Virus record (IMG/VR): IMGVR_UViG_3300047171_000143
Location: 1 to 40,919 of that record
Source of the DNA: a virus
Strand: one strand, 5' to 3'
DNA length: 40,919 nt
A program made the translations under genes and the position numbers. The notes beneath the pieces were generated by a model that was given only the letters and a program-made list of their open reading frames with translations, did no database searches and had not been told where the DNA came from. This document shows, in pieces, positions 13,200 through 33,229 of the stretch. Numbering within the stretch: the first letter of the stretch is position 1; each line of letters opens with the position of its first letter.

Positions 13200-14246
13200 A
13201 TGAGGCAGGATTTGAAGGTACTAAAGAAACTCTCGCTGTTTGTCCTGGTCTGTGTTGGTATGGGGGCCTTTGCATCGGCACTGCATGCGCAGACTTTGTT
13301 GACCACCACTACGCTCGCGTCGGCCGTTGGAAATACGCAGTCTTCGGCGCTGACGACGGGCAACCTGGGTGTGATCGCGGTGGCGTCGGCTACCGGGATC
13401 AGCGGCCCGACGCCGAATACGGGCAATGTCGCGGGGTTGGCGACGTCCAACGCGGCGACTTACCTGTATGTGGATCGCGAGCTGATGCAGGTGGAATCGG
13501 TGAGCGGAACTACGATCACCGTTATTCGCGGGGTGGGGCCGACCGCGGCCAGCTCTCATGCGAGTGGGGCGCTGGTGTTTGTGGTGCCGGCCGCGTTTGG
13601 CTATGGATCGAATACCAGGCCGGGCTATTCGCAGGCAGGCTCCTGCACTCGTACGAATGAGCTTTATCTGCCTCGGATCGAGTTCGCTTCGGGCACGGTG
13701 TCCGACTGTCTGGGTGGCCAGTGGGTGAATGGGGACGCTTCGCAGACAACGCGCGGCACCTTTTACCGGCTGGAGTCTCCGACGATTGGCGCTGTGTCAA
13801 ACGCGGCGGCAATCGGCACGAACTCGACGGCGGTGGCGGCCGAGCTGTACTGCACCGAAGTCCGGTTGCCGTATAGCAGGCTGCTTACGGGGTTTGCGCC
13901 GCACATTGGCACGACGGGCGGCACGGACAAGTGGATTGTGGCTCTGTACGACTCGAGCGGCAACCTGCTGGCCAACAGCGCGCTCGCCGGGGCAACGGTG
14001 GGCACGGCCAATACATGGCAGGCGACGGCATTTACGACGCCCTACTACGCGGTGGGGCCGGCGCAGTACTTTGCCTGCCTGATGAGCAATGGAACGACGG
14101 CAACGATCGACACGGTGACGACGGGCAAGGATGACAACATTCTTACCTTCAAATCGGCGTCGGCGGGGACGTTTGGGACGCTGCCGAATTTCACGGCGCC
14201 TACTTCGTTTGCGAGCGTTTCCGGCGCTTACGGGTATGTGTACTAG
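13200..14246 (+). CDS. Exported virion-like protein with Sec signal peptide
   Basis: 348 residues, ATG 13200 after GGGGAA. The N-terminus has a basic start (RQDLKVLKK), a hydrophobic core (LSLFVLVCVGMGAFAS) and ALHAQ as a likely cleavage site near residue 31. The mature part is Ala/Thr/Gly-rich and beta-like. A segment near residues 83-118 (YVDRELMQVESVSG, then TTITVIRGVG) is typical of phage structural or decoration proteins. A C-terminal domain has a VALYDSSGNLLA motif. Position directly after coat suggests a head decoration or fibre protein, yet the signal peptide predicts export. A host-envelope role is the main alternative. Confidence 0.65.
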   Translation: MRQDLKVLKKLSLFVLVCVGMGAFASALHAQTLLTTTTLASAVGNTQSSALTTGNLGVIAVASATGISGPTPNTGNVAGLATSNAATYLYVDRELMQVESVSGTTITVIRGVGPTAASSHASGALVFVVPAAFGYGSNTRPGYSQAGSCTRTNELYLPRIEFASGTVSDCLGGQWVNGDASQTTRGTFYRLESPTIGAVSNAAAIGTNSTAVAAELYCTEVRLPYSRLLTGFAPHIGTTGGTDKWIVALYDSSGNLLANSALAGATVGTANTWQATAFTTPYYAVGPAQYFACLMSNGTTATIDTVTTGKDDNILTFKSASAGTFGTLPNFTAPTSFASVSGAYGYVY

Positions 14247-14260
14247 CTGGGACCTTGGAA

Positions 14261-14284
14261 CTGAGGGACTGAGGGACTGAGGGA
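14261..14284 (+). repeat. Octamer tandem repeat CTGAGGGA x3
   Basis: Three perfect copies of CTGAGGGA, followed by a partial copy (CTA). It lies in the gap between the exported protein and the Acb2-like gene. Its size and place resemble the other short intergenic repeats in this window. Confidence 0.8.
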
Positions 14285-14297
14285 CTAACCAGGAGTG

Positions 14298-14316
14298 GGG
14301 CGGCGATGGGCCGCCC
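14298..14316 (+). promoter_or_regulatory. Hairpin upstream of the Acb2-like gene
   Basis: GGGCGGC pairs with GCCGCCC (7 bp) around GATGG, 21 bases before ATG 14338. Similar GC-rich hairpins lie before the next two genes, at 14602-14620 and 14965-14989. The AGGGAGGAAGT Shine-Dalgarno is left free downstream of the stem. Confidence 0.5.
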
Positions 14317-14337
14317 TGCGCCTTTGAGGGAGGAAGT

Positions 14338-14571: not shown

Positions 14572-14601
14572 GAATCTGCATTACTAACCAACAAGCAAAC
14601 C

Positions 14602-14620
14602 GGGCGGCTCATGGTTGCCC
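14602..14620 (+). promoter_or_regulatory. Hairpin upstream of the 95-residue gene
   Basis: GGGCGGC can pair with GGTTGCCC-type bases (7 bp including two G-T pairs) around TCATG. It lies 23 bases before ATG 14644, and a GGAGGAGGAA Shine-Dalgarno follows. Confidence 0.35.
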
Positions 14621-14643
14621 AAAATCGTATCGGAGGAGGAATC

Positions 14644-14931: not shown

Positions 14932-14964
14932 TTTCGCCGGAGACGAAGGAAACAAACCAAGGAA

Positions 14965-14989: not shown

Positions 14990-15013
14990 AGCACATTTAG
15001 GGGAGAAGAAGAC

Positions 15014-16431: not shown

Positions 16432-18021
16432 ATGGCGCGCTTTGGGTTTGTTGGGCCTACCTACACTTCGCAGTCGGTGATTGCGGACAGCCAGCGGTGC
16501 ATGAACTGGTATCCGGAGTTCATTGAAAGCGGGCAGGGGCAGAGTCAGATGGCGCTGTATCGAACGCCCGGCTTGAAGCTGCTCGTGACCCTGCCGACAG
16601 GCCCGGTGCGGGGCGGGATTGCGGTGACGGCTGGGCCTGCCGGGGGAACGTCGTTCTGGGTGGGCGGCGGGGTTCTATACCAAGTGGCCATCAACGCGGC
16701 TGGGGCAGGTGTGGCGACGGCGATTGGGCCGGTGGGCAATGACTTTCTGCCTGTGTCGATGGCGGTGAATGGCAGCGCCGGCAACCAGCTCTGCATCTGC
16801 TCGGCTGGGGAGCTCTACATCTACAATCTGAGCGCGCTGAAGCCGACGGGCAGCATTGGGCTGGCTCCGAACACGCTCTCGGGGACGATGGGCGGCCTGC
16901 AGGGGTTTGCTGCGAAGGTGGTGTACTGCGACGGCTACTTTGTGGCGACGCTGGCTAACACGAATGAGTTTCAGGTGTCCGCGCTCGAGGATGGGACGAG
17001 CTGGAATCCGCTCTCGGTGCAGCAGGTTTCGGTGTTTGCGGAGAATATCGGCGGGATCACGGAGGCTTACCGGCAACTGTGGATCTTCGGCGTCGACGGG
17101 CATGCGCAGGTGTACTACAACAGCGGCGCGAATGCCTATACGCCGTTCGATGTGATCGGGGCCGGCGGCGTGGGATTCATGGAAGAGGGCATCAATGCGC
17201 CCGAATCGCTGTGTGTGCTGGATAATGCGCCGTTCTGGATTGGCGGCAACGTCAACGGCGCGGGTATTGCCTGGCGGGCGAACGGTTACACGCCTACGCG
17301 GATCTCGAACCATGGGGTGGAGACAGCCTGGGCGAAGTATCCGAAGAAATGCAGCGATGCGGTGGGATTCAGCTATCGGGACCAGGGGCATACGTTCTGG
17401 GTGCTGCGCTTTCCGAGCGCGAACAACGGCTTTGGCGCGACCTGGGTGTATGACACGGCGACGCAGATGTGGCATGAGCGCGGGTATTGGTCGGAAGAGG
17501 GATTTACGGGCTTCCGGGCGCACCTGGCGGGCTGCCACTGCTGGGCGTTCAATATGCACCTGGTGGGCGACTGGAACAACGGCAACATCTACGCGATGGA
17601 TATTGCGTACCGGGACGACAATGGAGCGCCGCTGCGGCGGGTGCGGCGCGCTCCGCATGTGTCGACAGAGCGGCAGTGGATTTACTTCCACGAGCTCGAA
17701 GTGGTGATGGATGTGGGCGACGGTCCGATACCGCCGCTGGTCGATGGAGCGGGGAACGCGCGGGGTCCGCAGGCGATGTTGCGCTGGTCAGACGATGGCG
17801 GGCGCACGTGGAGCAATGAGCACTGGGTGGATGTGGGCCAGGCGGGCAACTACAAGACGCGCGCACGCTGGCTGCGGATGGGCCGCTCGCGCGATCGGGT
17901 GTATGAGCTGATGGTGAGCGATCCGATTGACTGGCAGATCATCGATGCGGATCTGCGGGCGACGCCGGGGTTCGATGTGCCTACGGAGCGGCTGGCTAAG
18001 ACTTATGGAAAGCAGGCCTGA
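16432..18021 (+). CDS. P22 gp10-like packaged DNA stabilisation (head-closure) protein
   Basis: 529 residues, ATG 16432 directly after the preceding stop. The opening (FVGPTYTSQSVIADSQRCMNWYPE) and the phrase YRTPGLKLL are typical of phage stabilisation proteins of the P22 gp10 kind. The body is a beta-rich repeat fold with Trp and Asn-Gly turns. Later segments (YRQLWIFGVDGHAQVYYNSG and RWSDDGGRTWSNEHW) suggest a beta-propeller-like fold. It should bind the gp4 ring and seal the head while giving an attachment site for the tail. Nearly every codon ends in G or C. Confidence 0.82.
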   Translation: MARFGFVGPTYTSQSVIADSQRCMNWYPEFIESGQGQSQMALYRTPGLKLLVTLPTGPVRGGIAVTAGPAGGTSFWVGGGVLYQVAINAAGAGVATAIGPVGNDFLPVSMAVNGSAGNQLCICSAGELYIYNLSALKPTGSIGLAPNTLSGTMGGLQGFAAKVVYCDGYFVATLANTNEFQVSALEDGTSWNPLSVQQVSVFAENIGGITEAYRQLWIFGVDGHAQVYYNSGANAYTPFDVIGAGGVGFMEEGINAPESLCVLDNAPFWIGGNVNGAGIAWRANGYTPTRISNHGVETAWAKYPKKCSDAVGFSYRDQGHTFWVLRFPSANNGFGATWVYDTATQMWHERGYWSEEGFTGFRAHLAGCHCWAFNMHLVGDWNNGNIYAMDIAYRDDNGAPLRRVRRAPHVSTERQWIYFHELEVVMDVGDGPIPPLVDGAGNARGPQAMLRWSDDGGRTWSNEHWVDVGQAGNYKTRARWLRMGRSRDRVYELMVSDPIDWQIIDADLRATPGFDVPTERLAKTYGKQA

Positions 18022-18025
18022 AGGC

Positions 18026-18041: not shown

Positions 18042-18056
18042 TGATCAGGGGGAAGT

Positions 18057-18236
18057 GTGGCGACTGAGGCGAAGCCGGTTTTTGCGGCGATGCAGTATAC
18101 GGACCCGAAGACTGGGTTGCTGACGGGTGGGGCGCAGCAGGCGCTGTCGCAGTGGCAGACGGCGATCACCACGCTGCAATCGCAGGTGGCGACCTTGCAG
18201 GCGGATGTAGCGGCATTGCAGAAGGGGGCAAAATAG
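18057..18236 (+). CDS. Short coiled-coil phage protein
   Basis: A 59-residue protein, GTG 18057 preceded by GGGGGAAGT. Residues 27-57 are heptad-like and hydrophobic at spaced positions (LSQWQTAITTLQSQVATLQ), so it should form a helical bundle or trimer. A small coiled coil between head-closure and tail-fibre genes recalls the P22 gp26 tail needle, but it is far shorter and is only a positional parallel. The stop codon's last base starts the next gene's GTG. Confidence 0.55.
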   Translation: MATEAKPVFAAMQYTDPKTGLLTGGAQQALSQWQTAITTLQSQVATLQADVAALQKGAK

Positions 18237-18263
18237 TGGTCAGTGGTCAGTGGTCAGTGGTCA
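18236..18263 (+). repeat. GTGGTCA tandem repeat x4 encoding the start of the tail fibre
   Basis: Four perfect copies of GTGGTCA. Both possible GTG starts of the tail-fibre gene (18236 and 18257) lie in it, so the first residues of that protein are repeat-encoded. It resembles the AGTGGTT arrays elsewhere in the window. Confidence 0.85.
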
Positions 18264-20404
18264 GGAAAAGCCGCGTTCTTGCGGTGCTGGCGTTGTGGGC
18301 GATGATGGGGAGCGCGGCGGTGCAGGTGCCTGGTCAGGTGGCCGTGTCGCCATGGAAGAGCCCGTATGTGACGTTTACGGACACCAACGGGGTGCCGCTG
18401 GTAGGTGGGTGCGTGTTTACCTATGCCGGTGGGACTTCGACGCCGCTGGCGACTTATACGGACTCTACGGGTAGTACGTTGAATGCCAATCCTGTCATTC
18501 TGGATTTGACGGGGTCGGCGAAGATCTGGCTGGGGCCCAGCACGTACAAATTCGCGATCTGGAGTACGGGAGGGACGAACTGCTCGAGCGGCGCTTTGCA
18601 GTGGACGGTCGACAATGTGCCTGGGAACATCTTTAACAACACCACGGTGAGCGGTGGGACCTGGACGGGCGGCACGATTACCGGCGCGGCGATCAGCGGC
18701 GGGACGATCACTGCCGCGGCGATCACGAACAGCACCATCGACTCGTCGCCGATCGGGCAGACGACGCCTTCGACGGGGTCGTTTACGTCGCTGGCCTGTG
18801 CGCTGAATAACATGACCTTCAGCTCCACGCCGGTGTTTGCGGCGGGGAGCTATTGCAATTTTGTGATGACGCTGACGAACAACGTCACTTCGTCCAGCCT
18901 GACGGGCGGGACGAACGGGCAGATCATCTATTTCAACATCTGCCAGAACGGCACGGGACAGACGATTGGCGGGATCACGACGGGCTTCACGTTCGCGTGG
19001 CCGTCGAACTATACGAATCCGCCGGTGATTAATCCGATTTTGAATGCCTGCACGATCGTCCAGGCGCAGTACAACGGCGGGTTCTGGACTACGATTTCGA
19101 CGACGCCGCAGCTATTGCTGGGGAACCTGGATACGATTCCTTTCAGCGCGACGCCCATCTTTCCGGCGGCGAGCTACTCCAATTTTGCCCTGACGCTGAC
19201 GGGGAATGTGACATCGAGCACGTTCACCGGCGGGACGACCGGGCAGGTAGTGACGATTGCCATCCTGCAGAATGGCACCGGCGGCAACACGTTTGTATGG
19301 CCGACGAACCTGCTGAATGCGCCGACCGTCTCTACCGGCGCGAACACCTACACGTCGATTGCGGCGGTGTACAACGGGACGAACTGGATCTCGGTGGCCA
19401 ACTCTTCAGTGACGAGTACGACGCCACTGACGGGCAATCTTGACACCATCCCTTTCACGGCCGCGCCGACGTACTCGGCGGCGAGCTTCAGCTCGTTTGC
19501 GATGACGCTGTCGGGGAATGTGACCTCGAGCACGATCACCGGCGGCGTCTCGGGGCAGCTCATCCAGATCGCGCTCACGCAGGGCTCGTCGACGACGGCC
19601 GCGCCGGCCTCGGCGCCTACGACCTCGACCCTGACGACAGGCGGCAACCTGCCTGGCACGACAACCTACTATGCCAAGTGCGCGTATCTCTATGGGACAA
19701 CCGAATCGCTGCCCAGCGCGGAAGCAAGTCAGATCACCGGGTCAGGATCGACGAACACAATCACGTATAACTGCCCGGTGGCCGCCGGCGTGACGATGTA
19801 CAAGTTCTACATTGGGACCGGGACGGGCGCGGAGAACTACTACTTCACCACATCGAGCGCGTCGTATATCCAGGTGGGTATGCCGAGCACGGGGACGCCT
19901 GGTCTCCCGCTGACGGGCAGCATCTATACCGTGAACTGGCCGCCGAACTTGATCAACGCGCCGATTATGACGACGGGCATTGGGCAGACGACGGCGCTGA
20001 TTGCGCTCTACAACGGTACGAATTGGGTCGCGGTGGGCACGACGGGCAGCGGGCAGACGGGTGTGACCTGCTCGGGCGGGAACTGCTACCGGCAGAACTC
20101 CGATGGAAGCTTTGAGGAGTGGGGGACGACGCCCACGTTTGGCGGCGCGAATGGCGGAAGCTTTTCGATGACGTTTCCGCATGCCTTCACGAATCTGGCC
20201 AGCATCACTGTCGTCTTCAGCGCGAATGCCTGCGCTGGTGGGACTACGGGTTCGTATTGCGCGGGCAATCCGGGTGGCAGCTCGAACAATACGTTTGGGT
20301 GCGGCATCGCGACGGCGAGCCTGACGGCGCCGACAGCCTTCTACACGAGCAGCAATACGGTGACTTCGGGCAATTCCTGCTCGTTTCATGCGATGGGGTA
20401 TTGA
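18236..20404 (+). CDS. Tail fibre with signal peptide and gp53-like C-terminal domain
   Basis: 722 residues from GTG 18236 (715 from GTG 18257). An Arg/Lys start and hydrophobic core (RVLAVLALWAMMGSAAV) look like a signal peptide. Next is a virion-adaptor-like domain (TFTDTNGVPLVGGCVFTY, then NPVILDLTGSAKIWL), common at the head-binding end of podovirus fibres. Three diverged beta repeats then follow (about 18793-19108, 19108-19430 and 19431-20055), each with an NVTSS(T/S) turn and WP-N-(P/L) motif. The last is interrupted by an Fn3-like insertion at 19596-19925. The C-terminal domain (SFSMTFPHAFTNLASITVVF) resembles tail-fibre gp53-like receptor-binding tips. The leader peptide is the odd feature. 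Confidence 0.75.
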   Translation: MVSGQWSVVRKSRVLAVLALWAMMGSAAVQVPGQVAVSPWKSPYVTFTDTNGVPLVGGCVFTYAGGTSTPLATYTDSTGSTLNANPVILDLTGSAKIWLGPSTYKFAIWSTGGTNCSSGALQWTVDNVPGNIFNNTTVSGGTWTGGTITGAAISGGTITAAAITNSTIDSSPIGQTTPSTGSFTSLACALNNMTFSSTPVFAAGSYCNFVMTLTNNVTSSSLTGGTNGQIIYFNICQNGTGQTIGGITTGFTFAWPSNYTNPPVINPILNACTIVQAQYNGGFWTTISTTPQLLLGNLDTIPFSATPIFPAASYSNFALTLTGNVTSSTFTGGTTGQVVTIAILQNGTGGNTFVWPTNLLNAPTVSTGANTYTSIAAVYNGTNWISVANSSVTSTTPLTGNLDTIPFTAAPTYSAASFSSFAMTLSGNVTSSTITGGVSGQLIQIALTQGSSTTAAPASAPTTSTLTTGGNLPGTTTYYAKCAYLYGTTESLPSAEASQITGSGSTNTITYNCPVAAGVTMYKFYIGTGTGAENYYFTTSSASYIQVGMPSTGTPGLPLTGSIYTVNWPPNLINAPIMTTGIGQTTALIALYNGTNWVAVGTTGSGQTGVTCSGGNCYRQNSDGSFEEWGTTPTFGGANGGSFSMTFPHAFTNLASITVVFSANACAGGTTGSYCAGNPGGSSNNTFGCGIATASLTAPTAFYTSSNTVTSGNSCSFHAMGY

Positions 20405-20850
20405 TGGTTATCTTTCCGGTCACCTATCGATCGCTGTTAGATGACCCCTCATGGCCTACGCTGATGGGCGAGTATGCCGTGGAGTGTTCGCTGCCGGAGC
20501 TGGGTGAGCTGGACCCGCAGCGCGACCTTTACGCGGCCATGGAGGCCTCGGGCGGCTTGCAGTGCTTTGGCGTGTATGCGGGAAGGCTGGTGGGCTTCAT
20601 TTCGCTGATTACCTGGACGGTGCCGCACTACGGGAAGACGATCGTTTCGACGGAGAGCATCTTTCTGTCGCGCAGCGATCGAGGACAGAACACGGGGCTC
20701 CGCATGCTTGACTTTGTGGTGGACTTTGGCCGCGAGAAGAAGGCGCGGATGGTGCAGATCACGGCTCCGGCCGGCTCTCGGCTGGGCAAGCTGCTGTCGT
20801 ACCTGGACCCGTGGCGGCATAGCAACGATGTGTTTGTGAGGGGTCTATGA
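20404..20850 (+). CDS. GNAT-type acetyltransferase-like protein
   Basis: 148 residues; ATG 20404 overlaps the fibre stop. The fold order of GNAT proteins is visible: a variable front half, a central strand with CFGVYAGRLVGFISLIT, then a strand with STESIFLSRSDRGQNTGLRML, which is the pyrophosphate-binding loop region (Q/RxxGxG/A-like, here RGQNTGL). GNAT genes near tail genes are common in podoviruses. The substrate is unknown. The stop overlaps the next ATG by four bases. Confidence 0.75.
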   Translation: MVIFPVTYRSLLDDPSWPTLMGEYAVECSLPELGELDPQRDLYAAMEASGGLQCFGVYAGRLVGFISLITWTVPHYGKTIVSTESIFLSRSDRGQNTGLRMLDFVVDFGREKKARMVQITAPAGSRLGKLLSYLDPWRHSNDVFVRGL

Positions 20851-21287
20851 CGCTCGCACTGATCGATAAAACGCTGCCGGCGACGTCGCGGGGGATCCTG
20901 GAGAAGATTGCGCTGGTCGAGGCGCGGCTCCGGCCGCGCGAGGGCACGCTGCAGGTAAGGATGGAGCATCGCCTGCACGCTGGACTGTATGCCAGGACGT
21001 GCCGGCTGGCTGCGGACCAGGTGATTACGAGCGTGCTGATCAAGATTCCGACGGTGCTGATCGTACATGGCGACTGCATTGTGCTGGCCGGGGACGAATG
21101 GCAGGAGCTGACGGGGTTCAACGTGCTGGCGGCGGAGGCTGCGCGGAAGCAGATTTATGTGACGCGCGGTGAGACGGAGATCACGATGATTTTCCGGACG
21201 GAAGCAAAGACGGTGGAAGAGGCTGAGGCCGAGTTTACGGATGAGGCGGCGAACCTGTTGAGCAGGAGGACGGAATGTCAGGGATAG
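20847..21287 (+). CDS. Cupin-like phage protein
   Basis: A 146-residue protein, ATG 20847 in an ATGA overlap. After a helical N-terminus, the central part has alternating strands with regular turns (YARTCRLAADQVITSVLIK, then TVLIVHGDCIVLAG) like a small cupin-type beta barrel. A helix with acidic residues ends the chain. Such a gene follows a GNAT gene in several podoviruses, but a metal-binding His triad is not clear here. Function unknown. Confidence 0.45.
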   Translation: MTLALIDKTLPATSRGILEKIALVEARLRPREGTLQVRMEHRLHAGLYARTCRLAADQVITSVLIKIPTVLIVHGDCIVLAGDEWQELTGFNVLAAEAARKQIYVTRGETEITMIFRTEAKTVEEAEAEFTDEAANLLSRRTECQG

Positions 21288-22306
21288 CGACGGGAACGGC
21301 TCTACTGATTGGTTCTGGAGTTGCGGCGGCCGGCGGAATCGGCAGCGCCGCGCTTGAATCGAGCGCGGCTGGCAAGGCTGCTCAAACTCAGGCGAGCGCA
21401 GCGGATCGCGCCGCCACGCTGCAGGCCGATCTGGGGCAGGAATCGCTGCAGAATGAGAATTACCAATACCAGCAAGACCGGGCGGATCAACTGCCGTACA
21501 TGCAGAGCGGGGCGAACAGCATGGCTACGCTGGACTACCTGCTTGGCCTGAGCTCGCCTAACGGTGCACCGGGTTCCACGGCTGGGTCTGGCTCAGCAGG
21601 GTCTCCGCAGACGCTCAGTATTCCGGGCGCGAATGGTTCCGTGACGCTGCCGGGTGTATCTGGAGTAACCGGGACGGCCAGCACCAACCTGGGAGATTTC
21701 GGCTCGCTGATGGAGAAGTATCCTGGCGGGGAGTTTGCCGCGCCCACGGCAGAGCAGGCTCGGCAGACGCCGGGGTATCAGTTTGCAGCGGATCAGGGAA
21801 CGCGCGCGATCGATGCCGGGGCGGCTGCGAATGGCTCGCTGCTGACGGGCGGGACGCAGACCGCGCTGAATCAATTTGGCCAGGGGCTGGCGGACACCAA
21901 CTACAACAACGTCTATAACCGGGCGCTGCAGACGTACAACACGAACTACAACACCTGGTCGAACAGCCAGGCGAACCAGTTCAACCGGCTGGCGGCGCTG
22001 GCAAATGCGGGGCAAGTGTCGGCGCAGCAGCTCGGCAATGCCGGACTTACGTCGGCAGGGCAGGTAGCGCAGACGCTGAGCAACACCGGGCAGCAGGTGG
22101 GCGCCAACATCAACAACGCGGCGGCGGCTACGGCCTCAGGATACATCGGGCAGGGCAACACATGGGGCCAAGGCCTAACCGGCGCTACGAACGGCCTGAG
22201 CCAGATGGCGATGCTTCAGAAGTTGATGCAGATGAATCCTCAGCAAGATCCCGGCGTTCAATGGGCCAGCGACCCCTCTAACCAGTACCTGATGAGCACA
22301 ATGTAA
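21275..22306 (+). CDS. Ejection protein, T7 gp14/P22-internal-protein-like
   Basis: 343 residues, ATG 21275, overlapping the previous gene. The N-terminus is an Ala/Gly-rich hydrophobic helix pair (TALLIGSGVAAAGGIGSAAL), then a coiled stretch (GKAAQTQASAADRAATLQADL), typical of internal virion proteins that insert in the host envelope during DNA ejection. The later half is Gln/Asn/Gly-rich (DTNYNNVYNRALQTYNTNY) and ends in a short helix. It is the first of three consecutive ejection-module genes, as in T7-like and P22-like phages. Confidence 0.78.
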   Translation: MSGIATGTALLIGSGVAAAGGIGSAALESSAAGKAAQTQASAADRAATLQADLGQESLQNENYQYQQDRADQLPYMQSGANSMATLDYLLGLSSPNGAPGSTAGSGSAGSPQTLSIPGANGSVTLPGVSGVTGTASTNLGDFGSLMEKYPGGEFAAPTAEQARQTPGYQFAADQGTRAIDAGAAANGSLLTGGTQTALNQFGQGLADTNYNNVYNRALQTYNTNYNTWSNSQANQFNRLAALANAGQVSAQQLGNAGLTSAGQVAQTLSNTGQQVGANINNAAAATASGYIGQGNTWGQGLTGATNGLSQMAMLQKLMQMNPQQDPGVQWASDPSNQYLMSTM

Positions 22307-23934
22307 TGGCGACCATACCTCTCCCAGCACTTCATACCGCGCCGATCGAGCAGCCCCCGAGCCCGCTGGCGATGTACGCCCAGCTCATGGGTATCAAGAA
22401 CCAGCAACAGGAGCTGCAGCAGCGGCAGGCGATGGCACCGCTGCAGCAGGAGCAGGCGCAGCAGGCCGTCCAGGCCGGGCAGTTGGAGAATCAGCAGCGC
22501 CAGCAGCAGCAGCAGGATGTACAGACGCTGCGATCGCTGTCTCCTAACTTCCTGACCAAGGATGAAAACGGCAAAGTTACGGGCTACGACTTCAACGGCT
22601 TGTTCAATCAGGCTGCCTCGTCCGGAGTCAGTCCGCAGACGTTGGCCGCGTTTCAAAAGAGCATTTCGGATGCGACCCTGGCGCGTGCGAATGCGACCAA
22701 GGCGGAGCGCGAAAATCAGCAGGCTGTGAATGCCGAGGCCTTTAATCACCTGGAGGGACTGCGGGGTGCGCAGGATCCGGCGCAGCGGCAGCAGTTGTGG
22801 CAGTCGGCGGTGCAGTGGTCGATGAAGAACTCGGCCGCGCTGGGAATCGATCCGGGAAAATTTCCGACGCAGGCACCGGATGACAACGGCCTGAGTGCGC
22901 TCGAGGCCTCGCTCGGGATGCATGCACAGCAGATCGCGGATGCAGGTAAGCTGGCGGAGACCGATAAGAACGTCCAGCAGGGTAAGGAAGCTTCGGCAAA
23001 GACGGCTCAAACAGAGGCGGAAACCAAGTTCTACGAGCAAAATGGCGGCGCGCCTGGGGTTCCCGCGGAAGCGGTGCAGCAGGCGGACTGGCTGAAGAAG
23101 AATCCCGGCAAAGGGCCTTCAGACTATGTTCTGTGGAAGGACAAGAACGCACCGTCTGTGATCGTGCAGAACATGAGTACAGCCGCTTCGGCGGGATCTG
23201 CACCTGGCAGCGGAGGCGCGATCGATTGGGGTAAGGCAGCGCAGCGATATGGCATGACGCCGGCCGCATTTGATCAGACGGCCGAAAAGTATTTTCAGAC
23301 TGGCCAACTGCCGCCGATCGGACGCAGTTCGAACGCTATTGCGATGAACCGCGACCTGATGAACCGCGCGGCAGAGCTGCATCCGAATGTATCCTTGGCG
23401 GAGAATTCAGCGGAATACAAGGCCAACGCCGACTCGCTGAAGAAGCTGCTAGGTGCCACGGACCAGCTCGAGGCCTTTGAGGGTACGGCTAACAAGAATA
23501 TCGAGCTGCTCAAAAGCATTGCGGCAAAGGTGCCGGATCTGGGCGTGCGCTTTGCGAATGTGCCGGTGAGGATGCTTACCGGGAACACGATTGGAACGGA
23601 GAATATGGCGGCCTTCAAGACTGCCCTGGCTCCGGTGCAGACTGAAGCAGCGAAGATCCTCAACTCGGCGAATCTGCAGGGAGTGCTTTCTGACTCGGCG
23701 CGGCATGAGCTGCAGGAGATTGTGGACGGCAATGCGACGTATCCGGCCCTTGTTGCTTCGTTGAATGTGCTGCAGAAGGATTTCAGCAATCGGCGCGAGT
23801 CAAACCATGCGCAGATTCAGGATATCCAGACACGGCTTGGGGGTACGAGGCAGCCGCAAGAGGGTACTACCAAGACCAACAGCCACGGCGACAAGATTGT
23901 CTTTAGGGGTGGCCAATGGCAGATGGCCCAATAG
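22306..23934 (+). CDS. Ejection/internal virion protein, Gln-rich
   Basis: 542 residues, ATG 22306 overlapping the previous stop. Residues 30-75 are extremely Gln-rich (QQELQQRQAMAPLQQEQAQQ), then helical. Heptad-like segments and a segment TGNTIGTENMAAFKTAL follow, and the last part contains KTNSHGDKIVFRGGQWQMAQ. The C-terminal 15-20 residues are duplicated in spirit in other ejection proteins. Position 2 of 3 matches T7 gp15-type internal core proteins. The GATATC site at 23821 lies near its end. The final codons overlap the next gene by 19 bases. Confidence 0.7.
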   Translation: MATIPLPALHTAPIEQPPSPLAMYAQLMGIKNQQQELQQRQAMAPLQQEQAQQAVQAGQLENQQRQQQQQDVQTLRSLSPNFLTKDENGKVTGYDFNGLFNQAASSGVSPQTLAAFQKSISDATLARANATKAERENQQAVNAEAFNHLEGLRGAQDPAQRQQLWQSAVQWSMKNSAALGIDPGKFPTQAPDDNGLSALEASLGMHAQQIADAGKLAETDKNVQQGKEASAKTAQTEAETKFYEQNGGAPGVPAEAVQQADWLKKNPGKGPSDYVLWKDKNAPSVIVQNMSTAASAGSAPGSGGAIDWGKAAQRYGMTPAAFDQTAEKYFQTGQLPPIGRSSNAIAMNRDLMNRAAELHPNVSLAENSAEYKANADSLKKLLGATDQLEAFEGTANKNIELLKSIAAKVPDLGVRFANVPVRMLTGNTIGTENMAAFKTALAPVQTEAAKILNSANLQGVLSDSARHELQEIVDGNATYPALVASLNVLQKDFSNRRESNHAQIQDIQTRLGGTRQPQEGTTKTNSHGDKIVFRGGQWQMAQ

Positions 23935-26207
23935 TTATCGATCCGGTCACGGGTGAGCGTGTCCAAGGTAGTGCGCCACAGGGCAAGATTCAAATCGACC
24001 CGAGGACTGGGGAGCGCGTTGCATCTCAGTCTGCCGGAGGTGGCGCGTCTTCCCAGGAGTTTGCGAATACCAAGGGCGAGGGTGTGTACAACATGTGGGA
24101 CACTGCGGGGAAGATGCACGCGGTGCCCTATTCGCTTGTGCCTGTCGTGCGGGGTCATGGGTTTCAGTTCGACACGAATGCGAACTCGGCCGGACTGACG
24201 CCGATGCAGCAATTCACGAAGGATGAGGCTGCGGATCCGCATCGTACCGGCGGCACAACCTTCACGATGGCTCCGGCGGGAACGACGTGGGAAGGCCGTC
24301 CTGAGCCTGCATCCCGACAGGAGTCCCTGCAGCGGCAAGCACAAGCCGACAAGACCGCGCCGCTGCCTCAGCAGCTGCTTACGGGTGCTATGAAGGGTGG
24401 CGGCACGATTGCACGCCCTGTTATTGACGTGGCGAACCTGGGGATGGGGGATAAGGGCGATACGCCGCAGGAGACCAGCGCCATGCTCGAGGGGCAGACG
24501 CCGACGGAAACCGCGGCTAAGGTCGGGACTATCGGGGCGACGATTGCGCCTGGGTTGGTTTACGCTCCTGTGCCGACTGCGACGGGTCTAGCTGGTGGAG
24601 CGATTGGCTCTTACGCGGCTGGCAAAATTGCTGATGGTCTAGGAGCTGATCCGAAGCTGAGCGCCGTTGTCAGTGATGTGGGTGGGCTGGCGGGCGGCGT
24701 AGGTGGGAGCATGGCGGTCCGGCCGTCTGCCGTGTGGGGAGCTGCGGGCCAAGCGCCGTTGGCCGGCGCTGAGGGGCCGGTAAATACGATGAGCGGCGTG
24801 AACAGTGTCCTGGATGCGGCGCAGCACGCTACGATCCCCTCGGCGTTTGGGGCTGCAGGGCGTGGATTGAAGACGGCGCTCACCGGGGATATACACGCAC
24901 CGATTCCTGGCACGGATATCACGCCTGCAGGCAGGTATCAGGCGATGAAAGATATGGGGCTGACGCCGAACGCGGCAGAGGCTACCAATGCGCCGATTCT
25001 TAAAGCCGTTGAGAGGGTAAACAAGAACAGTCTCACGGCGGCAGGAACCTATGCGGATGCTCAGGCTAACAACCTTGCTGCGCTGAATGACTTTACAGAG
25101 CACCTGCTGAATGGTATGTCGGAGACCAGCCCGGAAGAAGGTGGTGCGGCAGTTCAGCAGGGGCTTCGCGCCGCGCAAGTCAAACTGCAAAACAGTGCCG
25201 GTGAGGGCTTCTCAAACCTGGACAGGCAGGTGGGAAACCGCAAGATGCAAGGACGAACGATTCAGCAAACGGCGCAAAACATCTACGATGCGTACAAAGA
25301 TTACGCCGATAAGTATCCGGAGCTCGTGCCCAAAGATACATGGAAATTAGTGAAAAGATTGGCTGGAGCAGATACTACACCACCTTTTCGGCCGCAACCG
25401 GTGTCGTTCTCTGAGGTTCATCAGTTGCGATCAGACCTGCTGGAGTTGGTGCGCAGCAATCCCGACATTGTCAAGAACCAAGCGGGCGGATGGCTGCAGC
25501 AGCTTGCTGAGGCAGCGGATGCCACAATGACTACCGGGAAAAGTGGTTTGACGCCGCAACAGGTGCAGGTTTTCCGCGACGCGAATGAAGCGTGGGCGAA
25601 AATGAAAAGCATTTACGACAACCCTTCCCACCCGTTTTACCAAGCATTGCGGAACCCCTCGCCTTCGAAACTTGTGGACGGTATCTCAGCAACTCCAGAG
25701 ATGGCAAAGATGCTTCAAGAGGCGCTGGGTCCGGAGGGCATGGGGCCAATTCAGCGGGGCATTGCGGAAAAGCTTTTGCGGACTACAAGAGACGGTGGCT
25801 ACAACTTCAAGACGTTCCAAGGTCAATGGAACAGGTTGCCTGAGAGCTACCGCGAAGCCGTGTTCACGCCGGAACAGCGGCAGCAACTCGAAGGGATAGC
25901 GGAGGCCGGGACGGTGCTGAATACAGAACCGAATCCGAGTGGATCGGCCAGGCTAGGACAAGGAATTGCGGAGGGGGCCGAAGCGTTGAAAGCGCTTGCT
26001 AGTCCCAGCATCCCCGAGCTAGGGGGAAACGCGATCTATCATGGCGCGCATTACGGCGTAGGCAAGCTGATGAACTCGCCATGGTTTGTGGATTGGCTGA
26101 TGAAAGGGAGGGGATTTACGCGGATGGAAGACGCTGGCGCGGCACCTGTGGCACCGGTCGATCCACGCACTGGGCCGCTCGGACAGCCCAACTATTACTC
26201 GAATTGA
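23916..26207 (+). CDS. Large ejection/internal virion protein, gp16-position
   Basis: 763 residues, ATG 23916, chosen for its tight overlap with the previous gene. It starts with two copies of an IDP(V/R)TGERV motif (residues 8-15 and 26-33), followed by WDTAGKMHAVPYSLVPVVRG. The middle is Ala/Gly-rich, and the C-terminal half has many helices (MAKMLQEALGPEGMGPIQRG). Position and size match T7 gp16-like or P22 gp20-like ejection proteins. I see no transglycosylase motif (the usual ES/SLT Glu block), so if a peptidoglycan-cutting step exists it must come from elsewhere. A GATATC site lies at 24915-24920. Confidence 0.7.
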   Translation: MADGPIVIDPVTGERVQGSAPQGKIQIDPRTGERVASQSAGGGASSQEFANTKGEGVYNMWDTAGKMHAVPYSLVPVVRGHGFQFDTNANSAGLTPMQQFTKDEAADPHRTGGTTFTMAPAGTTWEGRPEPASRQESLQRQAQADKTAPLPQQLLTGAMKGGGTIARPVIDVANLGMGDKGDTPQETSAMLEGQTPTETAAKVGTIGATIAPGLVYAPVPTATGLAGGAIGSYAAGKIADGLGADPKLSAVVSDVGGLAGGVGGSMAVRPSAVWGAAGQAPLAGAEGPVNTMSGVNSVLDAAQHATIPSAFGAAGRGLKTALTGDIHAPIPGTDITPAGRYQAMKDMGLTPNAAEATNAPILKAVERVNKNSLTAAGTYADAQANNLAALNDFTEHLLNGMSETSPEEGGAAVQQGLRAAQVKLQNSAGEGFSNLDRQVGNRKMQGRTIQQTAQNIYDAYKDYADKYPELVPKDTWKLVKRLAGADTTPPFRPQPVSFSEVHQLRSDLLELVRSNPDIVKNQAGGWLQQLAEAADATMTTGKSGLTPQQVQVFRDANEAWAKMKSIYDNPSHPFYQALRNPSPSKLVDGISATPEMAKMLQEALGPEGMGPIQRGIAEKLLRTTRDGGYNFKTFQGQWNRLPESYREAVFTPEQRQQLEGIAEAGTVLNTEPNPSGSARLGQGIAEGAEALKALASPSIPELGGNAIYHGAHYGVGKLMNSPWFVDWLMKGRGFTRMEDAGAAPVAPVDPRTGPLGQPNYYSN

Positions 26208-26209
26208 TA

Positions 26210-26411: not shown

Positions 26412-26798
26412 CTATTTGGCGGGCTGAATGATTTCTTGATGCACCATTGAGAACTTATGTTCTTTGTGACTGGCATCGCGAACAACGAAGAAGTTACCGT
26501 GCCGATAGAATGCGACAGTTCCGTTCACGGGCAGTGGAATCGCCTCAATTACATCTTGCGTCCGGGTTCCCAGTTTGTAGGTTGATACCTCAACCCATGT
26601 CATCTGCTCTGTCTCGGTTTGCACGATGACGGTATTTGAGTAGCGGACCAAAGGGGTGTTTGTCATCAGTCCTCTGTCCTCTTGATGTGTTCGGATGTCT
26701 TGCGAGATGACCTTCGCGGTCTGTATGTCGTGCTGTTTTCGTGCTAAGACGGAGACCGGGAGGCATAATACCAAAGCCACTGGCAGCAAGCGTTTCAT
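26412..26798 (-). CDS. Exported hypothetical protein (lysogenic-conversion candidate)
   Basis: 128 residues from ATG at 26798, chosen because a CGGAGG Shine-Dalgarno lies six bases away; the longer frame adds eight unlikely residues. MKRLLPVALVLCLPVSVLAR is a clean Sec signal peptide. The mature part has VRYSNTVIVQTETEQMTW and VAFYRHGNFFVVRD, patterns that I associate with envelope proteins abundant in Acidobacteria genomes. It has no catalytic motif. Reverse orientation within a late phage block is typical of a moron gene expressed in the lysogen. It could alter the periplasm or block superinfection; both are inferences. Confidence 0.65.
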   Translation of the reverse strand: MKRLLPVALVLCLPVSVLARKQHDIQTAKVISQDIRTHQEDRGLMTNTPLVRYSNTVIVQTETEQMTWVEVSTYKLGTRTQDVIEAIPLPVNGTVAFYRHGNFFVVRDASHKEHKFSMVHQEIIQPAK

Positions 26799-27466: not shown

Positions 27467-30400
27467 ATGATGAAGCGGTACTTTGGTGCCTTCGCGCTCC
27501 TTTCCGTGCTATTTAGCTTTTGGGCCACGGCTGTTTGCGGGGCTCAGAATACGACGACGTTTGGCAACATTGTGAGCCAGGGGACGCCGTGCGGATCCGC
27601 GAACTGCGTGTACTACCAACTGCCGCCGTCGACGCCGTGGGTGTCTGTGGTGGTGACGGGGACGTGGACGGGCACGCTGGAGACGGCCGTAACGAGCGCG
27701 CCGAATGCGAACTACAGCAACCTGAGCACGCTGGCCTGGACGGCGGTGACGACGAATACGGCGAACGGCACCTGGACGGTAGCTACGACGGGATGGACCT
27801 ATCTGCGGGTGCGGGCGACGAGCTGGTCCGGTGGCCTGGCGCATGTGGCGATGGACAGCACGCTGACGCAGGCTCCGCTGATCAACCCGATCTTTCCGGG
27901 GCAGAGCGACGGGTTGACAGCCCCTGCGGGCAACACCGTGGTAGGCAACGGTGCCGGCACTACTTCAGTTACCCCTGTGTCGCAGGAACAAAATCTCTCT
28001 CAACTTTACAATCTTCCACTGAATTCAACGAGCATCTCAAATGGACTCCAGACAATCGGAGACTCGATTACCTGTGGCATAGGTGCGTGGCCTGCAACAA
28101 CTACGCCGTCAAGTCCAGGTCTGGGTTACGCCTACTTGATGCAGCAGCATTTAGGGGCTACTTTATTCAACCATTGCCAATCTGGGGGAACTGCTTCCGA
28201 CCTCGCTTATCTCATTCCGTATTTTGTCTATCCGTCCGAAGGAGCGAATCCTCTTTCGACATACATGGTGGGCAAAAACGACGAGAGCTATGGAACGACG
28301 ACGGCGAACCAGCAGTCTTACCTGAAGAACATGGTGGGCGGTGTTACCTGGGTGGCCATGCCCCCGTCTTCCCGGACCTCGACCAGCACACTCCCTTTGA
28401 CGATCACCAGTGCGGTGTACACGCCCCCCAACGGCTTGATCCCGGCGACGATGGTGTTTACCCTTTCCGCTCCCCTTCCCGGCTCGTATGGGGCGGGATT
28501 TCGCCTTGCGCTGTCGGGGCTGACTCTCAACACCGCGCTGAACGGCACGACCGTGCAGATCGATCAGCCGATGAGCAATCAGCTCACCGCATCGACCAAC
28601 AATCAGGTCATGGTGCAGATTCCGGCTTGCAGCTCATGCGCGAGCGGGACGGAAACAGGCTCGGCAACCCCGGCCAATTACACGTTTTCGGGCTTTGGAA
28701 CTCAGGACAACACGACCTATTTGACGGGCCAGTTTGCGACCTCTACAACCGCTGGCGACACCCTGACGCTGACCAATTACCCCATTGGGCAGACGGGCGT
28801 GCTGGTGGTGCATTACGCGGGCTACCAGAACGGCACAGGCACCGCTACTGTGTCGGTGGATGGCGCAGTCCAGACAGACACCCTGACGGCCTCTACGACG
28901 CTCAATGCGAACCAAGGAACGAACATCCAGAAAGCGTTTTTGCTGGCCAATGAAACCCCGGTGGAAGCGGCGGTTTATACCGGGCTGACTCCTGGGCTGC
29001 ATACGATCCAGATCACCAACACGAGCAACGCTCTTTTCGGTGTGCTCGACGTAGGTTCGCCGGATAACTCGGTCACGTCAGGGTCCAGCGCGCCCACGGT
29101 GTTTGTGGATGGCATTACCCCGAACGCTGGCGAGGCGATGACGGGAACGACCTCATACACGATCAACAACTGGGCGCTGAATGAAGCTTTGACACTATAC
29201 GAGCAGGGCTTCAACGTCTATCCCGTAAACGTCCGCCGATACATCAATTCAGGCGTGGACTTTTCGGGCGATGGCTTTCATTGCATCGCCTCGGACTTGC
29301 TTCCTGTCCATCCCGGCTCGTGCGGACACGCGGCAATTGCAAGAGCCAACGAAGAAGCGATTAAAGCCGCCGGTATGACACCTGGCGCAAACTGGACCTA
29401 CATCAATAACCCATCGGGCGGGACTACGCCCGTCAACAAGGCGTTCACTCAAGTCTTTCAGGCAGGCGGCAGTGTCGTGCTTGGCGCGGTAAGCAGCTTC
29501 CAAACTGGGCCTGTGACGATCTATAACAGCTCTACTTCCGCCAACCTGGTCGTGACTTCGACGGGGAATACGGGAGGAAACCTGACTCTCACCCCGCTAA
29601 CGGGTGGCGTGTGGACGACGAACGCTGGCGGGGCATGGTTCTATCTGCGGCCCTTGACAGCTACTTATCCTCAATCGCTCATCACGCAAAATGGCGGTAG
29701 CCCAGTTACAGTAGCCTGCACGAGCAGCTTCCAGACTTACATCCTTACTGGGAGTCCGGCTGCTCCGATCAATCTTCCGACGAATTGCCCGGCCCGCACT
29801 CAGGTAACGCTCATCAACCAAGCGGTGAGCGGGGCTTCCGCAATTACAGGGATTGCTTACGGAAACGCAACCTCACTGACGTCACTTGCTAACGGCGATT
29901 GCGTGACGCTCGAAGCGGAGCAGTATTCAGGGGCTGGAGGTTGGGGCAAAATTGCGGGTCAATGCTTGGCTTCTGGTGGAGGATCGGGGACGGTGAACAG
30001 CGGTACGGCGGGGCAGATCGCCTATTACGCTGCGAATGGCACCGCGGTGAGCGGGGCTACGACGCTGCCTGCATCGGCATTCCCTGGGCTGACGGGCGAT
30101 ATTATCTGTGCGGGCGGGGCGCTTGTTTGCGTGGTAGATGCTATTGGAGGAAGCTCGCTCACCGCGCTGCCTGCGCGAACCGGAGGAGTTTACACCCCCG
30201 TGTCGGTCAATCAGGCGACAGGGGCGCTTTATCCCATGACGGGCACGGACCTCGAATCTATAGGCTCCATCATCAACACACCGGGAAGTCAGGGTCAGTA
30301 CATCGCGCAGACTCTCGACTCGACCTTTGGCGCATCGGTCGATAACAACGTCTACCAGTACGCCGGATTTGCGCAGGTCGCTCTCGCATCGGCCAACCTT

Positions 30401-33229
30401 GGAAGCAACGCTGCCACGGTAACTTTCACTGCCAGCTCGGCAAATATCGCTGGGGCGAATACGTTGGGTTTCACCGCCCCTGTGCAGTTCAGCAGTACCG
30501 GGACATTGCCAACGGGCATCTCGGCAGCTACGACTTACTATGTGCTTTCAATGGGAAATCCCTTCACTGTTTCGGCTACGGTGAACGGTTCGCCGATTGT
30601 CGTTACTTCGGCGGGCACTGGCACGATCACCGCGACGGCTCAGGCGACTTACCCGCAAATGCTTACGTCATGCGGAATTAATCAGACCGTCTGGAATCAG
30701 GCTGATTATGCCTTCTTCTACACAAAGCAGGAAACCTGCGCGAAGGGTAACTCAAAGACGCTTGCGTGGGGTGATCAGAATCCGATTATCAAATGCGCTC
30801 AATGGACCCAACCGATTGCCGGTTTTTATCACACCAACAACGTGGGAACTTCCGGCAACGGAACATGGATACAACAAGGTTGCCAGTTGTTCGGCGAGGG
30901 CCTCGCTTCGCTCTCCGGCACGACCTTGACAGTTACAGCGGGATCGCTAAGTACCCTTTACAGCCCGCCGATTGTTGTGGGCACGGTAATCAATCTGGAC
31001 CAAGGCCCAGGGGTTGTGCCCGGCTCTCCGGCAGGCGTGGTGCAGGTAACTGTCCAAAGTGTCACGTCTGCGACAGTTCTGCAACTCGTCTCTAATCCCG
31101 TGGGAACGGCGACGAATATCCACTTCCTTACCGAAGCCCCGATGCAGACACAGACGGCCGGCAACGCTGCTGTTTATGAAGCGAACATCGTTTGGAATGC
31201 TGCTCAGAACGCCACTGGGTGTGAGAGCAACGCCTATGAAGATGGCGGCTTGTATAGCCAGATCACTTGCACCAACGTCGCCCCTGGGTCCGCGAATGCT
31301 ATGGTGCTCGGTTCGGCGGCTGGGTTTAATCAAGACAAACTCAACATGAATGTGCAGCTCACAAACCACATCGCTTCGACGCAAGGATTTCCGACTGTGA
31401 CAGGCACAGTATCTGGAGGGACGCTTACTTCCGTTACCACGTCGGGCGGGACTCAGCCTTTTGTTTCGTCAGAGTATCTGCAATTCAATGTCAAGGATAC
31501 GGCTGGTAACTGCTCAGTCGATCCGTCGGGAATCACGGGCCATCTTGTCAGAGGATGGACGATCACCGGCACATCGGACGGCACAACGCTCGCTCTTACC
31601 AACGTGACCGTATCAAGCGGCACTCCAGCAACTGGCAATCCTATCTTTGTGGATATGGCGGCTTCCAGCCTTCCCTCCACCGCTGAATGGTGGTATCAGC
31701 CAGCTTGGAACACGACCATTCAGACGATCACCGGCACTGGTCCGTACACGTACAACGTCATCAATTCGAATCACAAACCGATTCCGGCGGGAACTTACAC
31801 CTTCTACGGCAACACACCTACCAGCGTTGGAGTGGACAACAGCAGCATTGTTATCGGCAATGGAGGGACGTGCGCCACGGTGGGCACTCCTGCATTTACC
31901 AACACTTCACCGATCATCGCTGCGACCAATACGCTTGCGGCCAACAATACGATTCAGTTTCAAACGACGGGTGCTCTCCCTTCCGGGTTTGCCGCCAACA
32001 CGACTTACTACGTACTTTCAACGGGTCTATCAGGGTCGCAGTTTGAAGTCTCTGCCACTCAAGGGGGAACTCCGATCACTGCCGGGAGCGCGGGCAGTGG
32101 GACTCAATCGGCAACGGTGAATGCTCCTTATCTATCGGAGATGCAAATTTGGCCCGTGGCGAACGGTCTCTTAGACTTTGAGTCAGATGCTCACTGGCCT
32201 AACCTGTACGTGCAAGAATTTCCGATCGGCGTGACAGTGCAAGGCGGCGCTTCAAGTTTCGAACATTTTCACCCAACGTCAAACGTTACCGGACTCGCAG
32301 CGAATACCGGAAGTCTCAATTTCACGGACATGGAATGCGACACAAACCTGCTTTGCTTCAAGAACAACTCTTCGACTAACTCGACAATCAATTTCACGGG
32401 GACATTCAGCTATTTTGCTCACGCGGGAACTTTGGCCGGTGCGACTGTTTATCAGTTCGCACCATCTGGAAACCTCATAAAGATAGGCGGGGCTGGCGCG
32501 AATAACGCAGGGCATCCGACGACGGGATTCAATTTTTACGCCAATAGCAGCGGCGTGGCTTTGATTCCCTGCACCCCCGCATGGCTTGCTCTCGGAAGCA
32601 TCAGCACTCCCAATCAAGACCCTGCCTATGCGTCCACCAACGTCGACTGCAACATCAATAACACGATGTTTGTGAATGGCCTTGGAACGATGGGTCCGCT
32701 GTATCTTGGACCTTCTGGCTCTAATTCGCCTGGTACGGTAGGTCAAGTTCCCCTTTCGCAAGGCCCTGGCGTTGCTGCTATATGGGGAACGCCGCCTGCC
32801 GGAACGCATCAGGTCGGGCCGTTCTTTTGCACCGGGTTGGCGAGCAGCGGTGGCAACATGAGCGCGATTGGCGTGGGCGCAACGGCGGGTCCGGCCTGCA
32901 GCACGAGCGGCTACAACGGTCAGGTGGGTTTACTGATGGTTTCAGGTGGCACCGCAAGCAACCTGTCGGCGCGGTGTGGCTCTGTAGGTTCGAGCACGTC
33001 GAGTGGCACTATCACGCTTCAGCGCGTACTCAATACCGCAAGCGGTGCGGTGGCTACCAGCGAGCAGATCATCCTAGGTACCGGAGCGGCGGGAACACTC
33101 GTGCAGGATACGAACCCCGCTCACAACTACACATATGCAGCTGGGACTGTGCTGTCGATCCTGATGACAAGTGCAGGCAGCGGCGAAACGCTCGGCAACT
33201 GCACCTTCAATTTCGACATTACCGATTAG
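27467..33229 (+). CDS. Giant tail protein with signal peptide and split SGNH hydrolase
   Basis: 1,920 residues, ATG 27467 (or 27470) after CAAGGA. Residues 1-26 form a signal peptide (hydrophobic core LLSVLFSFWATAV, cleavage at GAQ). A disulfide-rich beta module follows (about 30-135). A GDSL-like hydrolase starts with IGDSIT (Ser200), with GKND (269-272), and ends with SDLLPVHPGSCGHAAIA (candidate Asp610 and His615). The roughly 340-residue spacing means a carbohydrate-binding-like module is inserted in the hydrolase. The rest is beta-rich and ends in a compact domain. Two copies of a TTYYVLS-containing beta module lie near 30440-30660 and 31927-32130. Likely a tailspike or fibre with an esterase that trims surface sugars. 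Codon style shifts near residue 165, suggesting mosaicism. Confidence 0.75.
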   Translation: MMKRYFGAFALLSVLFSFWATAVCGAQNTTTFGNIVSQGTPCGSANCVYYQLPPSTPWVSVVVTGTWTGTLETAVTSAPNANYSNLSTLAWTAVTTNTANGTWTVATTGWTYLRVRATSWSGGLAHVAMDSTLTQAPLINPIFPGQSDGLTAPAGNTVVGNGAGTTSVTPVSQEQNLSQLYNLPLNSTSISNGLQTIGDSITCGIGAWPATTTPSSPGLGYAYLMQQHLGATLFNHCQSGGTASDLAYLIPYFVYPSEGANPLSTYMVGKNDESYGTTTANQQSYLKNMVGGVTWVAMPPSSRTSTSTLPLTITSAVYTPPNGLIPATMVFTLSAPLPGSYGAGFRLALSGLTLNTALNGTTVQIDQPMSNQLTASTNNQVMVQIPACSSCASGTETGSATPANYTFSGFGTQDNTTYLTGQFATSTTAGDTLTLTNYPIGQTGVLVVHYAGYQNGTGTATVSVDGAVQTDTLTASTTLNANQGTNIQKAFLLANETPVEAAVYTGLTPGLHTIQITNTSNALFGVLDVGSPDNSVTSGSSAPTVFVDGITPNAGEAMTGTTSYTINNWALNEALTLYEQGFNVYPVNVRRYINSGVDFSGDGFHCIASDLLPVHPGSCGHAAIARANEEAIKAAGMTPGANWTYINNPSGGTTPVNKAFTQVFQAGGSVVLGAVSSFQTGPVTIYNSSTSANLVVTSTGNTGGNLTLTPLTGGVWTTNAGGAWFYLRPLTATYPQSLITQNGGSPVTVACTSSFQTYILTGSPAAPINLPTNCPARTQVTLINQAVSGASAITGIAYGNATSLTSLANGDCVTLEAEQYSGAGGWGKIAGQCLASGGGSGTVNSGTAGQIAYYAANGTAVSGATTLPASAFPGLTGDIICAGGALVCVVDAIGGSSLTALPARTGGVYTPVSVNQATGALYPMTGTDLESIGSIINTPGSQGQYIAQTLDSTFGASVDNNVYQYAGFAQVALASANLGSNAATVTFTASSANIAGANTLGFTAPVQFSSTGTLPTGISAATTYYVLSMGNPFTVSATVNGSPIVVTSAGTGTITATAQATYPQMLTSCGINQTVWNQADYAFFYTKQETCAKGNSKTLAWGDQNPIIKCAQWTQPIAGFYHTNNVGTSGNGTWIQQGCQLFGEGLASLSGTTLTVTAGSLSTLYSPPIVVGTVINLDQGPGVVPGSPAGVVQVTVQSVTSATVLQLVSNPVGTATNIHFLTEAPMQTQTAGNAAVYEANIVWNAAQNATGCESNAYEDGGLYSQITCTNVAPGSANAMVLGSAAGFNQDKLNMNVQLTNHIASTQGFPTVTGTVSGGTLTSVTTSGGTQPFVSSEYLQFNVKDTAGNCSVDPSGITGHLVRGWTITGTSDGTTLALTNVTVSSGTPATGNPIFVDMAASSLPSTAEWWYQPAWNTTIQTITGTGPYTYNVINSNHKPIPAGTYTFYGNTPTSVGVDNSSIVIGNGGTCATVGTPAFTNTSPIIAATNTLAANNTIQFQTTGALPSGFAANTTYYVLSTGLSGSQFEVSATQGGTPITAGSAGSGTQSATVNAPYLSEMQIWPVANGLLDFESDAHWPNLYVQEFPIGVTVQGGASSFEHFHPTSNVTGLAANTGSLNFTDMECDTNLLCFKNNSSTNSTINFTGTFSYFAHAGTLAGATVYQFAPSGNLIKIGGAGANNAGHPTTGFNFYANSSGVALIPCTPAWLALGSISTPNQDPAYASTNVDCNINNTMFVNGLGTMGPLYLGPSGSNSPGTVGQVPLSQGPGVAAIWGTPPAGTHQVGPFFCTGLASSGGNMSAIGVGATAGPACSTSGYNGQVGLLMVSGGTASNLSARCGSVGSSTSSGTITLQRVLNTASGAVATSEQIILGTGAAGTLVQDTNPAHNYTYAAGTVLSILMTSAGSGETLGNCTFNFDITD

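Follow-up and report, generated by a model that had tools for sequence, protein, structure and literature searches.

Three predicted outer proteins of an acidobacterial-type prophage almost certainly begin with genuine Sec signal peptides (SPs). The best explanation we can offer is a split assembly, to which we give a probability of roughly 0.6: the core of the particle would be built in the cytoplasm, the outer parts would be exported, and the two would meet by docking at lysis. The window (the whole stretch of viral DNA analysed, 40.9 kb, 59% GC) is a P22-like podoviral prophage of Acidobacteriota type with a host flank at the right, and the virus in it is a temperate P22-like podovirus. The SPs are found on the protein encoded after the coat gene (post-coat protein, start at 13200), an adaptor-fibre protein (18236) and a giant protein (27467). 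Predicted SPs are restricted to outer parts and are found on no core particle part that we tested.

The gene content that marks a P22-like podovirus is present in the window, with a P22-type coat, a P22-type portal and, downstream, gp10-like head closure and ejection genes. The terminase large subunit starts at 5457, followed by the P22-like portal (8421..10553, +; PF16510, E 9e-79), a scaffold-like gene (10838), the P22-like coat protein (11894..13132, +; PF11651, E 1.2e-13; phrog_283), a gp4-like gene (15380) and the Hc3/gp10-like head closure protein (16432..18021, +; phrog_578, E 8e-92). Three ejection-type genes (starting at 21275, 22306 and 23916) occupy 21275..26207 (+); the first matches phrog_598, and the other two were assigned by position and conservation in relatives. 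An integrase gene (PF00589) lies at 33799 with host genes beyond it. A usual, though not formally defining, trait of P22-like phages, the SP-less tailspike or fibre, is absent: the adaptor-fibre protein has an SP in the window and in all clade members tested. Close relatives of the window sit in Acidicapsa dinghuensis 4GSKX (L041) and in uncultured Acidobacteria, which makes an acidobacterial host most likely. Near the prophage's integrase end, between an S41 peptidase and a PBP1A-like gene, we also noted an EcoRV-type restriction endonuclease (PF09233, E 1.6e-118) and a D12 adenine methyltransferase (PF02086) at 36557-38286. Towards the left of the prophage, at 1590-1985, is the gene for a Tlde1/L,D-transpeptidase-like protein (PF10908), adjoining a DUF5131 gene (466-1617).

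The preliminary description had proposed Sec SPs on the three proteins, and all three leaders were found, at 13200..13289 (+), 18236..18334 (+) and 27467..27544 (+). Each start has the features of a Sec/SPase I SP behind plausible start signals, with a basic n-region, a hydrophobic h-region and small residues at –3/–1, these features being weakest in 18236. With a slash at the predicted cut, the post-coat leader (ATG start; residues 1-30, ...ALHA/Q) reads MRQDLKVLKKLSLFVLVCVGMGAFASALHA/QTLL, the adaptor-fibre leader MVSGQWSVVRKSRVLAVLALWAMMGSAAVQVPG/QVAVSPW and the giant-protein leader (ATG start, AAGGA upstream; ...VCGA/QNTTTFG) MMKRYFGAFALLSVLFSFWATAVCGA/QNTTTFG. We ran the SP prediction that had been suggested for the three proteins and their homologues with our own rule-based scorer, calibrated on core phage proteins from the same loci, on homologue loci drawn from IMG/VR and GTDB genomes. 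It called an SP in 26/27 post-coat homologues and 8/8 giant-protein homologues, and in 0/364 homologues of eleven core gene classes from the same phages, which included the portal (0/27), coat (0/59), Hc3 (0/92) and the three ejection-type proteins (0/52, 0/7 and 0/9). Leaders at equivalent gene positions kept their SP character while their sequences diverged. The post-coat leaders of relatives, for example, are quite different from one another (MKKKFSLFLLVCAFASALHA/Q, MKRFAAVSSFLVVLASIGNA/Q and MNKTLKLASFVMGLLLCGSAFG/Q), with n-, h- and c-regions recognisable in every SP-bearing homologue. This conservation by position, together with the core controls, therefore excludes chance and wrongly called starts, and we regard the three predicted SPs as real with very little doubt.

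The mature post-coat protein (13290..14246, +) has 318 aa and is the neighbour of the coat gene. Its structure model (pLDDT 77) gave as best PDB match in Foldseek the capsid accessory protein of cyanophage A4 (9jwb chain Z; E 6e-5, TM 0.56 by target length), a fold match that covers only part of the protein, with 14% sequence identity. The next matches were phage baseplate, tail-tip and fibre domains, so that this single capsid chain stands among many tail-domain matches. The decoration-type beta domain attributed earlier to this protein is thus partly supported, by coat-gene adjacency and by the cyanophage match, and we consider it a probable capsid decoration or adhesion protein. A tblastn search of the protein against INPHARED gave no match. 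Four conserved cysteines (mature 119, 140, 188 and 263) form two near-invariant pairs: residues 119 and 140 are Cys in 22/22 and 21/21 of the aligned rows with a residue there, and 188 and 263 in 18/20 each. The number of mature Cys is even in 22/23 post-coat proteins. An SP-less homologue adjoining the coat gene in a betaproteobacterial prophage (L064) has no Cys.

The adaptor-fibre gene starts at a GTG with AAGGGGG upstream and is coupled by a TAGTG overlap to a small coiled-coil-like gene without SP (18057..18236, +). Its c-region is the least typical of the three; relatives have leaders ending in ...SASA/QVAVSPW, ...SAMA/QVAVSPW and similar, as in MNTRKVSLLLLLLLGASMASA/QVAVSPW and MKKLFALLAFAFAASALA/QVTVAPF, and in these too the SP directly precedes the adaptor domain. 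A GTGGTCA/GTGGTCAG tandem repeat encodes the n-region of the window's fibre SP (18236-18270), and one relative (L006) shows a similar VVSGEWSVV stretch; because of these two observations, fibre leaders may recruit intergenic repeat DNA. The predicted fibre-adaptor domain proved genuine. Lying at the mature N-terminus (18335..18631, +), it is homologous to the spike and fibre N-termini of proteobacterial phages, keeps their invariant residues (alignment A1) and has an extra Cys pair (mature C26 and C83). The remainder of the protein occupies 18632..20404 (+). A gp53-like tip, also proposed earlier, found no confirmation in Pfam or PHROGs, and these domain searches assigned nothing firm to either 18236 or 27467. 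Directly 3' of the fibre gene is a GNAT-like acetyltransferase gene (20404-20850; its weak match to PF00583 falls short of the curated cut-off), and relatives also have similar-sized genes after the fibre gene.

Giant-protein leaders of relatives (MLKRYFWAIALVCAVTSALHA/QNTTTFG and MLKRLLIFALFLPIAAFA/QNTSTFG) precede an N-terminal beta-sandwich domain that in the window spans 27545..27880 (+; model pLDDT 87.8) and has a conserved Cys pair (mature C16 and C21). This module is common to other SP-bearing phage proteins; a PDB fold search with it returned no match below E 0.001. The remainder (27881..33229, +) holds a weak GDSL-like segment (protein residues 197-291). As this segment is all that domain searches revealed, the earlier description of 27467 as a giant tail protein is borne out only in part, and tblastn against INPHARED gave one marginal match. 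Just before the giant gene, a small moron-like gene on the minus strand (26412-26798, –) has its own SP, MKRLLPVALVLCLPVSVLA, and minus-strand SP genes occupy the equivalent place in L041 (17256-17894) and L003 (20268-20996). In the viral contig L115 (5944-12266), four consecutive tail-region genes start with SPs, the third judged by eye.

We examined the association of the adaptor SP with host phylum by scanning genomes with alignment A1, which yielded 40 loci. An SP directly preceded the adaptor domain in 7/7 Acidobacteriota and 0/33 other-phylum genome matches (Fisher p 5e-8); in all 33 of the latter the domain is the protein start. Two of the seven Acidobacteriota SP loci (L046 and L080) were judged by eye, the scorer having missed both. 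Phylum-wide and order-wide searches added four loci with an SP (L168, L169, L171 and L172) and one without (L170), bringing the count to 11/12 Acidobacteriota. The one exception found there is an adaptor-like domain of 34% identity on a 68% GC contig of an Acidobacteriota-phylum genome. Among viral contigs, the adaptor SP was present in 7/80, and the others begin with the domain itself. In a tree of the gp10-like (Hc3) protein the SP-bearing phages form one clade, this acidobacterial P22-like clade having an SP at every locus with the adaptor in view; tree rows marked 'no' within it are loci whose adaptor lies outside the fetched stretch, not SP-less cases. A prophage considered as a counter-example (G534) was set aside, there being no adaptor gene visible on its contig. 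In other acidobacterial genomes, the ejection genes of prophages are followed by a terminal run of 2-3 SP genes (L287, L289, L175/L209), and such cassettes extend to more distant acidobacterial prophages, including one in a Bryobacteraceae genome (L287, L289, L175/L209, L178). The SP may therefore have been gained ancestrally in one clade and then spread. Its acquisition in the P22-like clade may have happened just once, in an ancestor, so that the counts overstate the number of independent observations behind the host association. The preliminary description named homologues beginning downstream of the hydrophobic part as evidence against its claim; these turned up only as distant homologues in phages of other phyla and never among relatives in the acidobacterial P22-like clade. 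This confinement argues that the predicted SP is a lineage-specific addition rather than an error.

The cysteines of the mature proteins point to an oxidising compartment. In the window they number 4 (13200), 14 (18236) and 30 (27467). Even counts were found in 19/22 SP-bearing mature adaptor proteins and 19/21 other SP-bearing phage proteins, compared with about 50% in the controls (36/74 SP-less adaptor proteins, 15/31 coat and 11/21 Hc3), comparisons that are only indicative because homologues are not independent. At least two Cys fall within the first 99 residues in 18/25 SP-bearing versus 1/108 SP-less adaptor proteins, and the Cys pairs of the SP-bearing proteins are missing from SP-less homologues. 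Cys density as sole evidence is weakened by the core proteins of the acidobacterial P22-like clade (coat and Hc3), which are also somewhat richer in Cys than those of other phages; we relied instead on parity and paired positions. The suggestion that the mature Cys would suit periplasmic disulfides thus gains strong comparative support.

Gln occupies position +1 of the predicted SPase I cut in all post-coat proteins (23/23) and in the majority of adaptor and giant-protein homologues. By our own scorer, Gln at +1 follows 19-53% of predicted SPs in three acidobacterial genomes, 22% in Paraburkholderia and 37% in Hymenobacter. Given the Paraburkholderia value, we do not claim an Acidobacteriota-specific Q-rule. 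In acidobacterial secretomes (L214-L233, L267-L286) predicted SPs are nonetheless often followed by Gln, which may reflect a preference resembling the Q-rule outside Bacteroidota. Conservation of the SPs by position, the even Cys numbers, the Cys pairs absent from SP-less homologues and the +1 Gln make export, cleavage and disulfide bonding of the three proteins very likely. Of the assembly route or surface display by export that had been raised earlier, the export part is strongly supported comparatively by positional SPs, +1 Gln and the Acidobacteriota association.

We propose the following route. Coat, portal, scaffold, gp4-like, gp10-like and ejection proteins would be made and assembled in the cytoplasm, while the host Sec system would export the post-coat protein (probably head-decorating), the adaptor-fibre protein and the giant tail protein. 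Cutting by signal peptidase I would expose an N-terminal Gln directly ahead of the mature domain, and the exported proteins would fold in the periplasm with disulfide bonds. Lysis by holin and endolysin would then mix both pools, and the mature proteins could attach to completed particles by their N-terminal regions, whether adaptor or capsid-binding. Gene position and resemblance predict that the three are outward-facing accessory parts that can be added to finished particles. Docking at lysis, to which we lean, is plausible in that tailspikes and decoration proteins are added on to the particle, and phage L offers a precedent, its decoration protein Dec binding finished P22 capsids in vitro (PMC6449081). 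Extended to the phylum, the idea would be that decoration and adhesion proteins of Acidobacteriota phages are Sec-exported and disulfide-bonded, giving oxidised, robust outer parts on virions completed only at lysis; for an adaptation of that breadth we see an even chance.

The strongest competing reading is export with no attachment to virions. The three would then be non-virion proteins, lysogenic-conversion factors that arose from fibre genes and act in the envelope of the infected or lysogenic cell, whether in adhesion or matrix, in masking receptors or in superinfection exclusion. SPs by default target the periplasm or beyond, and the separate minus-strand SP gene just ahead of the giant gene fits such a role. 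A lone SP-adaptor gene of 576 aa without phage neighbours on an Acidobacteriales chromosome (L288, 4628-6358), possibly a domesticated fibre, also makes a secreted use outside the virion conceivable. However, the genes lie within the structural operon beside the coat and gp10-like genes, and no second, SP-less adaptor-fibre copy accompanies them in the loci read. The adaptor domain, moreover, retains its invariant residues and still sits first in the mature chain, as it does in SP-less virion fibres, which argues that these proteins still bind tails. Because the domain stays intact exactly at the N-terminus left by cleavage, we favour virion attachment over retention at the host surface, and consider a purely envelope-based function unlikely, if a serious contender.

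A mixed fate, in which periplasm-folded proteins are held loosely at the cell surface and picked up by particles crossing the envelope, thereby serving in both display and virion, fits all the sequence evidence, and several SP genes per prophage would allow differing fates. We think it improbable: the three mature N-termini, which start with Q-V/T/N, show no sign of a lipobox or of an anchor for the outer membrane. That the hydrophobic N-termini are not working SPs at all, being uncleaved virion anchors or products of mis-called starts with the true starts downstream, draws on the weak c-region (VQVPGQ) and GTG start of 18236. This is very improbable: start signals directly precede the leaders, SP character is kept without sequence identity and is absent from the core genes, and neither +1 Gln nor even Cys counts would be predicted. 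A chance or GC-rich compositional artefact is refuted by conservation, the SPs being confined to equivalent gene positions across phages down to ~36% identity, and its probability is negligible.

The reducing environment of the cytoplasm is generally assumed to be where structural proteins of tailed phages fold and assemble. For Benler 2018, the lack of SPs on phage DGR (hypervariable) proteins spoke for their origin in phages (PMC6199706). If outer virion parts are exported first, SP-bearing phage adhesins are not automatically host or lysogenic-conversion genes, disulfides become usable in fibres, and the final assembly step shifts to lysis. The combination of SP, +1 Gln and even Cys number could serve as a sequence signature for finding adhesins of Acidobacteriota phages. 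Among the papers listed in our searches of non-subscription literature, none reported exported tailed-phage adhesins, little concerned adhesins of Acidobacteriota phages, and no induced phage of the acidobacterial P22-like clade came up.

Among known systems, the P22-like podoviruses of Salmonella and the coliphages (P22, L and HK620) share with the window the P22-type coat, portal, gp10-like head closure and ejection genes. Their tailspikes and the Dec protein of phage L are cytoplasmic and lack SPs, whereas the outer parts encoded in the window bear Sec leaders and Cys pairs. The window's adaptor domain is 41-51% identical to spikes or fibres of Xanthomonas phage PBR31, podovirus ctNMl277, phage DSL-LC05 and Rhodoferax P26218. 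Unlike in the window, the domain forms the protein start in PBR31 (a tail spike), ctNMl277 and DSL-LC05, without SP and without the Cys pair; the ctNMl277 gene lies downstream of a stabilisation gene, as in the window. Coat proteins of filamentous phages are virion proteins with a Sec leader that assemble in the membrane during extrusion, a route that a lytic tailed phage cannot use. The nearest published precedent we found is in phages of Porphyromonas gingivalis, which have SP genes of unknown function obeying the Bacteroidetes Q-rule (Matrishin 2023, PMC10367356; also noted in PMC10653852). Those genes combine Sec SPs with a Gln after the cut, as in the window, but the window's genes are assigned to the decoration and fibre positions of a virion module, and the hosts are Acidobacteriota.
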